Position numbers and translations under genes: made by a program
Assembly: GCA_944323735.1 (NCBI GenBank)
Contig: CALUTO010000001.1
Coordinates: 62,001 to 126,000, forward strand
Reading direction: 5' to 3'
DNA: 64,000 bases
Source of the DNA: Candidatus Gastranaerophilales bacterium
Lineage (GTDB): Bacteria > Cyanobacteriota > Vampirovibrionia > Gastranaerophilales > Gastranaerophilaceae
Notes under the pieces: generated by a model
Seen by the model: only the letters and a program-made list of their open reading frames with translations
Database searches by the model: none
Told to the model about the DNA's origin: nothing
Part shown: positions 20,392 to 24,736 of the stretch, piece after piece
How the letters are laid out: the number at the start of each line of letters is the position of its first letter
How positions within the stretch are numbered: the first letter of the stretch is position 1

Positions 20392-20715
20392 CTAGTATTT
20401 GAAGGAACGTTCAATGTTTTTTTCGAGCATTTGCTCGCAGGATTCCATTTCTTTTTCAATCATCTGGAGTTTTTCCCGATAATGCTGCATTTGCAAATCA
20501 AGTTCCTTTTCCATCACATGCAAACGTTCTTTTCTTGCTTCAAGTTTTTTGACAAGCGGGTCATCAGAATCCAGATCCGTACCGACATTCAGCAAATCGG
20601 TAGCGGTTTTTGACAGATTCATTTTCGCTTCTGCGACTAATTGTTCTTTGAACTCAAGGTCGAGACTATACGCCTTAAGATACATTAATCGCATCTGTGC
20701 CGTTGCCATTCCCAT
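20392..20715 (-). CDS. Small helical protein of the MG(M/L)A-Q-R family, minimal form
   Basis: A 107-aa, almost entirely helical protein. The N-terminus MGMATAQMRLMYLKAYSLDLEF lines up with MGMAASQARYLGIQARKTNVEY of the gene at 22223. The C-terminus (KEMESCEQMLEKNIERSFKY) lines up with the KKVIDKNI..TFKTF ends of both larger paralogs. The central 200-residue domain of those paralogs is missing, leaving just the two terminal helices. An earlier ATG at 20751 is possible, but the AAGGGTGG just before 20715 and the family N-terminus decide the start. It follows the 90-aa gene by 60 bases and is probably cotranscribed with it. Function unknown; the architecture is like flagellar axial proteins, whose terminal helices pair. 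Confidence 0.75.
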   Translation of the reverse strand: MGMATAQMRLMYLKAYSLDLEFKEQLVAEAKMNLSKTATDLLNVGTDLDSDDPLVKKLEARKERLHVMEKELDLQMQHYREKLQMIEKEMESCEQMLEKNIERSFKY

Positions 20716-20753
20716 TTTGGAACCACCCTTATCTAGTTTTCTGACCTTCACAC

Positions 20754-20777: not shown

Positions 20778-21048
20778 ATCTTGTAGTGTTGAATTTATTT
20801 CCGTAGAGGAATACATGCTCATTGTTTTCTGCAATCAGCTTTTCCATCTGCTCAAGCTTGTACATTTGATAATTAACCCTGTATTTTGCCATTTTAAGTT
20901 TTTTACCCATTGTAAGGTAGCCCTTAATAATTTCGGCAAATGTGTTAACAATAACCAGCACGGGGTTATTTCTCTTAAGGTAAGATATCATATACCCCAC
21001 GAAGTTTAGCATACTTTGCAGATTGTATTGGATTGCACTTTGAAACAA
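20776..21048 (-). CDS. Small helical protein of unknown function
   Basis: A 90-aa protein. The first 45 residues are amphipathic to hydrophobic (MLNFVGYMISYLKRNNPVLVIVNTFAEII) and the rest is a charged helix rich in Lys, Met and Glu (KMAKYRVNYQMYKLEQMEKLIAENNEH). The start is TTG at 21048, supported by a strong AGGAG eight bases upstream; no ATG fits. It precedes the minimal family member at 20715 with a hairpin between them. I recognise no family. A chaperone or membrane-associated partner of the neighbouring helical proteins is a guess from context only. Confidence 0.6.
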   Translation of the reverse strand: MFQSAIQYNLQSMLNFVGYMISYLKRNNPVLVIVNTFAEIIKGYLTMGKKLKMAKYRVNYQMYKLEQMEKLIAENNEHVFLYGNKFNTTR

Positions 21049-21368
21049 TTACTTACTCCTTTACGGACCTACATAACTATAAAAACATTTAACAGTGAAT
21101 AATTGCGCAAATGGCGGAATTATTTAATAAAACTTAACTTTTATATTTTCAATTCCCTGTAATCTTGAAAAAATCAGAATTATTCTTCTGTTCTGTATAG
21201 TTTATCGGCATATTTACCGAATTCTTGAATATATTGTGCGTGTCTGTGCCCGTATTGTAATAAAAATTTACAATTTTTTTTAAAAAATCAAATATAAAAA
21301 TTTTGCTGATTGCTGTTGAATTAAAAGTTCTTATGTAAGTCCGTCTGTTATGCTTCATAAACGCTGCC
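21049..21368. other. Gene-free stretch of 320 bases
   Basis: AT-rich DNA between the 90-aa gene and the Gly-rich protein gene. It must contain the promoter for the 90-aa gene (AGGAG at 21056-21060 is its ribosome site). No hairpin terminator, structured RNA or sigma-28 motif was seen. A minus-strand open frame at 21149-21436 overlaps the end of the next gene, has no good start signal, and is not called. Confidence 0.6.
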
Positions 21369-22222: not shown

Positions 22223-23197
22223 TTACTGGAATGTTTTAAACACATTATCAATATTTTTGTCTATAACTTTTTTAACAGATTCAAGTTCTGTCTGCAGAGC
22301 CTGCTGTTCTGTATCAAGCTGGGCAAGACGGAGTTCAAGAGTTCTGTCCTGCTCCTGCAATTCCTGTGTTTTTGCGTTTATATCAGCAACTTCCTTTTCA
22401 TAGAGTTCTTTATCATAGTTATACTGATTCATTGCTTCATCATACGCTGCATCGTCATATTCACTGCCCGGTGTAAGATTATAGCTGTGTGTGCCTTCAT
22501 CATCAGTCCAGTAAATAGATGTATAAATACCTTCTTCACTTTTGCCGAGAGTTGCATTAGTAATTGTTTCATACTGTGATTCTGTGCCTGACATCATAGT
22601 GAAAAAATCAACTGTCTGGTTTGTTTGAACAGACGGATCAAAACCTGTCTGCGTAGCATTAATATAATATGTTGCATTTGTCGCCGGATTTGTGTATCTG
22701 TAATACACATCATCAGGACTGTTCTGGTATGCAGCAGACCCTAGTTCGTTAAAACCGTTTACATATGTTTCGCTTATCGGAGAAAGCGGCCCGTTCAAAG
22801 TAAACTGGGTACCATTAGCCAGATTGAGCTTGTAGGTTTCACCGTCCTGAATAACAGAAACCTCCTGATTTGTAATTGCACTGTACTGGGGAACAGTAAC
22901 ATTTCTTTTTATACTGACCGTATAAGTTTGGGGATTAGACCCTTCGTTTAGGCTTATATCGTCAACAACTGCCGTACCATCCGAGCTTGTCGCATCAGAG
23001 AATGTATAATTACTGGTTTTATAATCCGTTTGATCAGGAGGAGTCGGAACGTCAAGTGTCAAAAGACGTCTGAACAAATTTGCACTCTGGTTTGCAAGTG
23101 CTGTACGCTGCTGGTTAACCTGCTGACCTTCATATTCAACGTTTGTTTTTCGAGCCTGTATACCTAAGTATCTGGCCTGTGATGCTGCCATACCCAT
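22223..23197 (-). CDS. MG(M/L)A-Q-R family protein, paralog 1 (axial-like helical ends)
   Basis: A 324-aa protein. The N-terminus MGMAASQARYLGIQARKTNV and the following QQVNQQRTALANQSANLF are nearly identical to the gene at 23417. The central 200 residues are beta-rich and diverge strongly. The C-terminal 60 residues are a Gln/Glu/Leu-rich coiled coil (AQLDTEQQALQTELESVKKV) ending DKNIDNVFKTFQ. Helical N- and C-termini around a variable core is the plan of flagellin, FlgL, FlgK and T3SS tip proteins, but the sequence is not a recognisable member of these. GGAG lies nine bases upstream of the ATG. A possible sigma-70 promoter (TTGACA at 23260-23255, 16-base spacer, TAAACA) lies ahead. It is followed by the Gly-rich gene. 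Confidence 0.8.
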   Translation of the reverse strand: MGMAASQARYLGIQARKTNVEYEGQQVNQQRTALANQSANLFRRLLTLDVPTPPDQTDYKTSNYTFSDATSSDGTAVVDDISLNEGSNPQTYTVSIKRNVTVPQYSAITNQEVSVIQDGETYKLNLANGTQFTLNGPLSPISETYVNGFNELGSAAYQNSPDDVYYRYTNPATNATYYINATQTGFDPSVQTNQTVDFFTMMSGTESQYETITNATLGKSEEGIYTSIYWTDDEGTHSYNLTPGSEYDDAAYDEAMNQYNYDKELYEKEVADINAKTQELQEQDRTLELRLAQLDTEQQALQTELESVKKVIDKNIDNVFKTFQ

Positions 23198-23416: not shown

Positions 23417-24430
23417 TTATGCAAATGTTTTGAATGTTTCTTCTATGTTTTTGTCAATTACTTTCTTGACCGCTTCTAATTCTGTCTGGATAGCCTGTTG
23501 TTCCGTATCAAGCTGGTTCAAGTGAAGTTCAAGGTTTTTATCCTGCTGCTGGATAATTACTGTTTGTGCGTCAATTTCCGCAATACGCTTGTCATACTCG
23601 GCTTTTTTTGCATTGTATTCATCCATTGCTTCATCAAATGCATCATCATCCTGAGTTGTCTGCATCGTCATTGAACAAGTAATTTCCGCTCCGGTTTCGG
23701 GGTCTGTGAAGGTAATTGTTGTAAACCTTCCTGTTCCGTCAGCGGCATTTGTCAATCTTGCATCGTCTATATGGAACTGATCCTCTCTGGAGTAGCTTTC
23801 TGCGGAATAAACCTGAAGCTCTGCAGGGAATGTATCCATTGACGGGTCAAATCCGGTAGTGGTTGCGTTAATATAGTAGGTTATACCTGTTTGCGAATTT
23901 GTATACTGATAGAACAAATCATCTGCGCTGTTATTTCCGTTTGAACCTGACGCTGAATTAAATTTGTCTACCAGCGCAGCGCACATTGCAGGACCTGTTA
24001 ATTCAAGATAATCTCTTCCGCCTATGCTTATTGAATATTTAACAGGGTCTCCTTCTGCTTTTACGTTATATCCGTTGTTACCTGTTCCGTTATAGACCAG
24101 ATTTACTGCAGATGATGCGTAATCAGCTCTGTTGATTGTTCCGTCAATTGTATAAGTCTGCGGCATTCCTTCTTCGACAGGATTTTTTAAGATATTGCTT
24201 ATTGTGACCTGTTCGGAAGTAGCCTGGTTTGTGAAAACATATTCGCTTTTTGAATAATCGTTTGCCATAGGAGGAGTAGGAACTTCGAGCGTCAGCATTT
24301 CATTGAACAGGTTTGCACTCTGGTTAGCAAGAGCAGTACGCTGCTGGTTAACCTGCTGACCTTCATATTCAACGTTTGTTTTTCGGGCCGTCAATCCTAG
24401 AAATCTTGCTTGAGATGCTGCCAATCCCAT
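23417..24430 (-). CDS. MG(M/L)A-Q-R family protein, paralog 2, under a sigma-28-type promoter
   Basis: A 337-aa paralog of the gene at 22223. The N-terminus is MGLAASQARFLGLTARKTNV, with the same QQVNQQRTALANQSANLF block. The divergent beta-rich centre (about 60-250) contains NATTTGFDPS, which is also present as NATQTGFDPS in the paralog. The C-terminal coiled coil ends VIDKNIEETFKTFA. AAGGAG precedes the ATG at ten-base spacing. Upstream is a near-consensus FliA promoter, and downstream a strong terminator, so it is a monocistronic, probably late-flagellar-class gene. The inference that it is an exported axial or appendage protein rests on promoter and architecture, not on a domain match. 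Confidence 0.82.
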   Translation of the reverse strand: MGLAASQARFLGLTARKTNVEYEGQQVNQQRTALANQSANLFNEMLTLEVPTPPMANDYSKSEYVFTNQATSEQVTISNILKNPVEEGMPQTYTIDGTINRADYASSAVNLVYNGTGNNGYNVKAEGDPVKYSISIGGRDYLELTGPAMCAALVDKFNSASGSNGNNSADDLFYQYTNSQTGITYYINATTTGFDPSMDTFPAELQVYSAESYSREDQFHIDDARLTNAADGTGRFTTITFTDPETGAEITCSMTMQTTQDDDAFDEAMDEYNAKKAEYDKRIAEIDAQTVIIQQQDKNLELHLNQLDTEQQAIQTELEAVKKVIDKNIEETFKTFA

Positions 24431-24736
24431 AGTTTAAATACTCCTTGTTTTTGCATATCTATAGGTATAGTCGGCACTTTAGCAAAAAACTTTAGGATTT
24501 AAAGATAAATTTTAACAATTTGTTACAAAAATTTCAGTTTTCTACACCGGCAAAAGAAAAATACTTACCTTAACCTTACGTTCCGTTTATACCTGTTTTT
24601 AGAAGTTAATGTTTTGTTTCAAAAAGTCAATCTTAACAAATCTATATAGATACATGACAAATTTTTTGAACTAATATATTATTAATATAAATCATATTAC
24701 TGACGGGGGGACAGAAAAATTAAGGACAGATTTAAT
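24431..24736. other. Divergent intergenic region of 306 bases
   Basis: AT-rich spacer between paralog 2 (minus) and the 156-aa gene (plus). It contains the sigma-28-type promoter described separately. On the plus side only AT-rich candidates such as TTGAAC at 24666-24671 are visible, with no well-spaced -10. A G-rich run (GGGGGG) lies near 24705. No structured RNA was recognised. Confidence 0.6.
24468..24494 (-). promoter_or_regulatory. Sigma-28 (FliA) type promoter
   Basis: Minus-strand TAAAGTTT (24494-24487), exactly 11 bases, then GCCGACTA (24475-24468). The enterobacterial FliA consensus is TAAAGTTT-N11-GCCGATAA, so the -35 is perfect and the -10 differs at only two positions. The expected transcription start would give a leader of about 30 bases with AAGGAG and the ATG at 24430 correctly placed. 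Confidence 0.8.

Follow-up and report, generated by a model that had tools for sequence, protein, structure and literature searches.

What does a promoter of the late flagellar type do in front of a gene whose relatives are kept by bacteria that have no flagellin? The question is raised by a stretch of 64,000 nucleotides (nt) from a Candidatus Gastranaerophilales bacterium (assembly GCA_944323735.1, contig CALUTO010000001.1, positions 62,001 to 126,000; hereafter the window, in which all positions are counted where no other contig or locus is named), in which a site of the sigma-28 (FliA) type occurs on the minus strand at 24494-24468, ahead of an open reading frame (ORF) of 337 amino acids (aa). 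The answer favored here, with a probability of about 0.62, is that the FliA promoter drives flagellin-like axial proteins, and that a second type III apparatus, derived from the flagellum, most likely exports and assembles them.

Read on the minus strand from 24494 to 24468, the site is TAAAGTTT TTTGCTAAAGT GCCGACTA; it thus consists of a -35 box TAAAGTTT (24487-24494), which is preceded by a conserved C (CTAAAGTTT) and is invariant in ten orthologous upstream regions, a spacer of 11 nt, and a -10 box GCCGACTA (24468-24475), which in most relatives is GCCGATAA or near to it. It agrees with the FliA consensus TAAAGTTT-N11-GCCGATAA in 14 of 16 positions, and the same string is found nowhere else in the 2.06-Mb genome. 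From its end it is 37 nt to the ATG of the 337-aa ORF (24430), with a Shine-Dalgarno sequence, AAGGAG, in between (24441-24446, minus strand; CTCCTT on the plus strand). The gene for the sigma factor, fliA, is present in the same genome (C12:17849-18511; 233 bits, against a cut-off of 189.6), and one of its flagellin genes carries a like site, TAAAGTAT-N11-TTCGATAT; the 337-aa gene and a flagellin of the same organism are thus very probably served by one sigma factor. An earlier note on this DNA had described a near-perfect sigma-28 site, correctly spaced to a ribosome site and start codon, and had named the existence of fliA as a check; the description is borne out in each of these respects, and cross-genus conservation joins the 14 matching positions in its support. 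As judged from sequence, the site is confirmed as a real and conserved sigma-28 promoter.

This does not follow from the number of motif occurrences, which is at the level of chance both in the window (three sites at ≤3 mismatches, where 1.3 are expected, a number reached by 19 of 100 shuffles) and in the genome (85 near-matches, against 120 for a reversed control pattern); the significance of the site therefore rests on its position and conservation. CTAAAGTTTT and TG-CGA do not vary among ten orthologous upstream regions, drawn from three genera, in which much of the surrounding DNA has diverged. Circularity was avoided by a 16-position matrix derived from only four flagellin promoters, and thus independent of the 337-aa gene, with p-values obtained against 200 dinucleotide shuffles for each of 100 regions upstream of family genes. 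By this measure, 54 of the 100 regions contain a site at p≤0.01, where about 1 would be expected by chance; the sites lie mostly 30-45 nt 5' of the start codon, across Gastranaerophilales, and are found in flagellin-positive genomes (26 of 43 regions) as in flagellin-negative ones (28 of 57). The motif written as a regular expression gives essentially the same picture, matching 53 of 101 upstream regions against a mean of 0.2 in shuffled sets. That the motif is a chance match and no promoter, as genome-wide counts no higher than those of the reversed control might suggest, is highly improbable; this reading was rejected, since the motif is invariant across genera within a diverged intergenic region and keeps a near-constant distance to the ATG.

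The protein encoded behind this promoter belongs to no family in Pfam, NCBIfam or PADLOC, where only coiled-coil noise is returned; it has no match to Flagellin_N/C (PF00669) at E≤1 and none in NCBIfam, and a profile search of solved structures yielded nothing useful. An alignment of 43 members nevertheless shows a characteristic architecture, with near-invariant ends and a variable middle: the N-terminal end conserves MG-AASQAR-L--TARK-N-EYEGQQ-NQ, and the C-terminal end is a long coiled coil. The 337-aa protein (23417-24430, minus strand; an 'AASQAR' family member) begins directly with a helix and has no apparent N-terminal signal peptide. Its AlphaFold model (mean pLDDT, the predicted local confidence, 85; pTM, the predicted template-modeling score, 0.46) consists of an N-terminal helix (residues 3-47), a variable, β-rich domain (about 60-260), and a C-terminal helix (262-336). 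Among 350,542 chains searched with Foldseek, this model matches a flagellar filament best (E = 1.5e-4), with FliC and a cap-filament complex next in line; on re-alignment with VIA, flagellins, FlgL, FliD, and hook and rod proteins make up most of the top 29 rows, with Z of 6-9.3 (flagellar and injectisome families that are not in the VIA list do not count as excluded). On the strength of the model, a flagellar axial-protein fold is likely, though not proven.

A gene with such a fold and such a promoter might be an ordinary late flagellar gene, and the earlier note had indeed placed it in the late flagellar regulon. Its distribution argues otherwise. In the 88 genomes of family f1 (G000-G087; counts tallied from the listed rows), the gene family is present without exception, mostly in several copies, and fliA is found in 85, including 48 of the 50 genomes without flagellin; the two flagellin-less genomes that lack it are 78% and 57% complete. 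Flagellin_N occurs in 38 of the 88, and both FliS and FliD_N above cut-off are restricted to these flagellin-bearing genomes. The other 50 have no flagellin, no FliS, no canonical FlhA, and no confident FliD, which is either absent or below cut-off; the present genome has flagellin, FlhA1, FliS and FliD. What stands of the regulon assignment is therefore the shared sigma factor, to which the sigma-28 site, the presence of fliA, and a flagellin with the same type of site all point; strict membership, which would imply co-occurrence with flagellin, is not supported, since the gene family is found in all 50 flagellin-less genomes and persists there, together with FliA sites, without FliS, confident FliD or canonical FlhA.

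A second feature of the promoter separates it from those of the flagellins. At a fixed distance upstream of the -35 box lies a tandem element, TTGTAACAAATTGTTAA (24512-24528, minus strand), in which two TGT(A/T)A half sites, spaced by about 11 bp, lie at -34/-33 and -23 relative to the -35 box. TGTAA occurs in 40 of 53 FliA promoters of the gene family, against 4.7 in shuffles; over all retrieved loci, the tandem element accompanies 57 of the 64 non-redundant sites of the gene family and 4 of the 19 remaining FliA-like sites, and it is not seen at the nine listed flagellin FliA sites. The promoter core is common to the gene family and several flagellin genes, whereas the upstream element is not shared, which sets the family promoters apart as a sub-regulon and suggests that the element is the binding site of a dedicated activator. 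The same tandem element, together with FliA-like sites, also precedes two other genes of this genome (G000 C8:79218, seen in L013 and L076:13217; and L016); both are short and have no assigned function (MILEYKVNEIHVEP... and MIKKSQKPSSN...), and they are candidate members of the same sub-regulon.

An accessory filament or junction protein, such as a minor flagellin or an FlgL-like protein co-expressed with flagellin, would agree with the FliA site at a flagellin gene of this genome, with the likeness of the fold to flagellin, FlgL and FliD, and with the presence here of flagellin, FlhA1, FliS and FliD; it would leave unexplained why the family is kept in 50 of 50 flagellin-less genomes, many of them with a FliA site, and why the tandem element marks the family sites and none of the nine listed flagellin sites, and we consider it rather unlikely.

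What the flagellin-less genomes do retain is an export apparatus. FHIPEP falls into two lineages; canonical FlhA (E about 1e-260) is confined to flagellin-positive genomes, and the other lineage (E about 1e-217) is found in nearly all. In parallel, fliP occurs in at least two copies in 37 genomes, all with flagellin, and in exactly one copy, taken as the fliP of the second set, in 49 of the 50 without. The present genome has both lineages, FlhA1 on contig C22 and FlhA2 on contig C8; FlhA2 shares 82-84% identity with its counterparts in two flagellin-less genomes (82-90% across the three) and only about 37% with FlhA1 of its own genome, which marks it as part of an orthologous, constrained second system rather than of a decayed flagellum. 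It stays below the cut-offs of both established models, scoring 701.7 against the FlhA model TIGR01398 (cut-off 772.1, passed by FlhA1 with 851.9) and 600.5 against the injectisome SctV model TIGR01399 (cut-off 692.25). Along with FlhA2, its operon encodes a FliF homologue, a FliG-like protein, FliH and an ATPase of the FliI type, and in relatives FliE stands ahead of these; a further cluster on C12 encodes FliR, FliQ, FliP, FliO and a FliM/N-like protein, with fliA 11 kb away on the same contig. Rod/hook proteins (Flg_bbr_C) number about 1-3 in flagellin-less genomes, against mostly 6-8 in flagellated ones, a count in which the hook protein proper was not searched separately. Between FliR2 and FliQ2 lies a 120-aa protein (L081:1048-1410, minus strand) with a leader-like N-terminus and no Pfam match, possibly a periplasmic component of the second apparatus.

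Incomplete flagellar gene sets have been reported in this order before (PMC4040986, PMC5877343) and were taken as loss by Soo et al., 2014 (PMC4040986). By extension, the export genes, fliA and the gene family of flagellin-less lineages would be functionless leftovers of a lost flagellum. This is distinctly improbable: the retained genes are not the flagellum's own copies; they form a second, orthologous set, which the present genome has in addition to a full flagellum. FlhA2 remains 82-90% identical across genera, and the promoters, the order of the cassette and the presence of several family copies per genome are all maintained. A pure flagellar remnant was rejected because the second set is orthologous, conserved, and found beside the full flagellum here.

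The second export set explains why the gene family and FliA persist without flagellin, and suggests the following course of events. The apparatus comprises FliE, FliF, a FliG-like protein, FliH, FlhA2 and FliI, a second FliOPQR, a FliM/N-like protein and between one and three rod proteins; it is distinct from the true flagellum and is kept by nearly all members of the bacterial family, flagellated or not. The basal apparatus would be made first, together with a family copy under a promoter of the sigma-70 type (the 324-aa type beside the 271-aa protein, P271, described below). FliA, aided by a putative regulator at the tandem TGTAA element, would then turn on the late copies, namely the 337-aa type and a pair of 90 and 119 aa; their products would traverse the apparatus and assemble outside via their terminal helices, giving a filament, tip or sheath at the surface with the variable heads turned outward.

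Several points weigh against this proposal. The fold comparison is ambiguous at its upper end, since the top row of the VIA re-alignment is a coiled-coil stretch of an unrelated large protein and Z values of 6-9.3 can be reached by chance from long helices alone; at the level of sequence there is no match to flagellin, FlgL or any solved protein. FlgM was searched for across the 88-genome family and not found, so it is uncertain whether FliA is released in the usual way, by coupling to secretion. Many flagellin genes have no visible FliA site, which makes it hard to say how far the FliA regulon extends; the genomes are mostly draft metagenome-assembled genomes; and in the present genome the cassette that contains the 337-aa gene lies on a contig different from those of both export clusters. 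This last point would also suit surface proteins that are controlled by FliA and exported by some other route, the second type III set being unrelated to them. Such a route is improbable, however, as the cassette is linked to FliE2-FliF2 in four other loci (at about 3-6 kb in L079, L141, L152 and L167), and the 337-aa protein combines an axial-type architecture with no apparent N-terminal signal peptide.

Export through the second apparatus is thus retained as the preferred reading, and it invites comparison with known systems. The promoter resembles those of FliA (sigma-28) class 3 genes in its TAAAG(T) -35 box, its GCCGATAA -10 box, its 11-bp spacer and a FliA that scores above the family cut-off; it differs in that its targets persist without flagellin, in the fixed upstream tandem TGTAA, in a spacer that is often 12, and in FlgM not being found across the 88 genomes. 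Retention of a FliA-type sigma factor for other uses has parallels: WhiG of Streptomyces is a sigma-28 homologue in bacteria without flagella. Chlamydia, likewise without flagella, has a sigma-28 whose targets are hctB and tsp (PMC12282069). Unlike in these cases, the targets here resemble axial proteins of flagella, and an export apparatus of the flagellar type is retained as well.

Such an apparatus is also retained in the non-flagellated Lysobacter enzymogenes, where flagellar type III export genes work in the absence of filament, cap and hook-filament junction, and which has lost FliE, FliG, FliM and FlgB (PMC9927559); in Gastranaerophilales, FliE, FliF, a FliG-like protein, a FliM/N-like protein and 1-3 rod proteins are kept as a second set, which in this genome stands beside a full flagellum and has a large family of candidate substrates. 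With flagellin and FlgL (HAP3) the family has in common multiple copies, FliA control and, as predicted by the model, helices at both termini that flank a variable outer domain; it differs in having no Pfam flagellin match and no D0-like extra termini (the alignments begin at flagellin residue 48-49), and in occurring without FliS, FliD or flagellin. An injectisome, the non-flagellar type III secretion system, likewise has an export gate and ATPase without flagellin; here, FlhA2 falls under the SctV cut-off and FliG- and FliE-like parts are present (no search for a secretin was made, and a needle is not identifiable by sequence).

A broader reading is correspondingly tentative, and we would put it at somewhat less than an even chance: Gastranaerophilales may have a type III nanomachine of a third kind, which would be neither a flagellum for motility nor an injectisome of the classical type, and in which a flagellin-less basal body, under FliA and a putative activator, builds a filament or tip of variable flagellin-like proteins from a large family that acts on gut neighbors or host surfaces. 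A literature search for type III systems in Melainabacteria, Vampirovibrionia and Gastranaerophilales, whose coverage did not extend to subscription papers and preprints, found no description of one. On the present evidence, part of what was formerly taken for flagellum loss in gut cyanobacteria (Melainabacteria) is an export machine in its own right, which is conserved in nearly the whole family and has flagellin-like candidate substrates of its own under FliA control. What these bacteria, abundant in the gut and mostly uncultured, display or secrete can thereby be framed as a testable proposal; the case also provides a clear case of a flagellar sigma factor outlasting flagellin, and a new data point on the interconversion of flagella and secretion systems.

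The 337-aa gene heads a cassette on the minus strand. It is followed by a 324-aa paralogue without a FliA site (22223-23197; 46-49% identical), of the type that directly precedes the gene for P271 (21369-22184), a conserved 271-aa protein of no known family, a speculative candidate for a translocator that forms a pore or tip, whose AlphaFold model is unusable (pLDDT 37). Then come a 90-aa protein with a TTG start (20779-21048; 42% identical by tblastn to L079:9585-9857, in conserved order) and a 119-aa protein (20392-20751), whose likely start, MGMATAQMRL, gives 107 aa. The latter is a head-less relative of the 337-aa family: the C-termini match in a profile comparison (probability 93.8%, E = 1.8e-7), and by eye its N-terminal MGMATAQMR resembles MGLAASQAR. 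The order 337/324-type, 271-aa, 90-aa, 119-aa is kept over many genera, and the position of a copy within it goes along with the type of its promoter; among the named loci, a FliA site is found at 47 of 51 family genes that are not immediately followed by the 271-aa gene, against 16 of 38 that are, and those of the remainder that were displayed have TTGAC/TATAAT-like sequences in its place. In the flagellin genes (G000 C7:45053, L169-L188), about half of those examined have no recognizable FliA site, and the flagellins, too, seem divided between promoter types.

The earlier note had further linked the cluster functionally to a giant FliD-like gene. This ORF (39693-63956, minus strand) continues past the window to an ATG at 66395 on the window scale (L073), giving about 8,900 aa with FliD-like ends and many repeats. 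A FliD-like identity is credible, since the giant ORFs of relatives (about 2,400-6,600 aa), which occur only in flagellin-positive genomes, have FliD_N hits. The link itself is not supported at the level of the promoter: no FliA-like site lies within 400 nt of the giant's start, and the promoter therefore does not connect the two genes.

Conservation around the FliA sites extends beyond the boxes. Between the -10 box and the ribosome site of the 337-aa gene, a leader block, AGATATGCAA (24443-24465, minus strand), is nearly invariant in three genera, and AAGGAGTAT and AGATATG are invariant in the ten orthologous upstream regions; the conservation of this block exceeds the needs of a plain leader. 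A second, weaker FliA-type site, TCAAGAAT-N11-GCCGATAA (21202-21228, minus strand), stands before the pair of 90 and 119 aa, with its position and -10 box kept in most relatives; as far as can be read from the DNA, this site (21228-21202) and the tandem TGTAA element are part of the same regulon as the 337-aa promoter. The site is followed by a leader of about 150 nt ahead of the 90-aa gene (window 21049-21235, minus strand; L090-L166). An Rfam scan of the cluster, including this leader, found no known RNA; the leader contains invariant GCAAT and GTTTTTAT blocks and, in several relatives, a small inverted repeat near the Shine-Dalgarno sequence, making a second promoter or an RNA control element possible.
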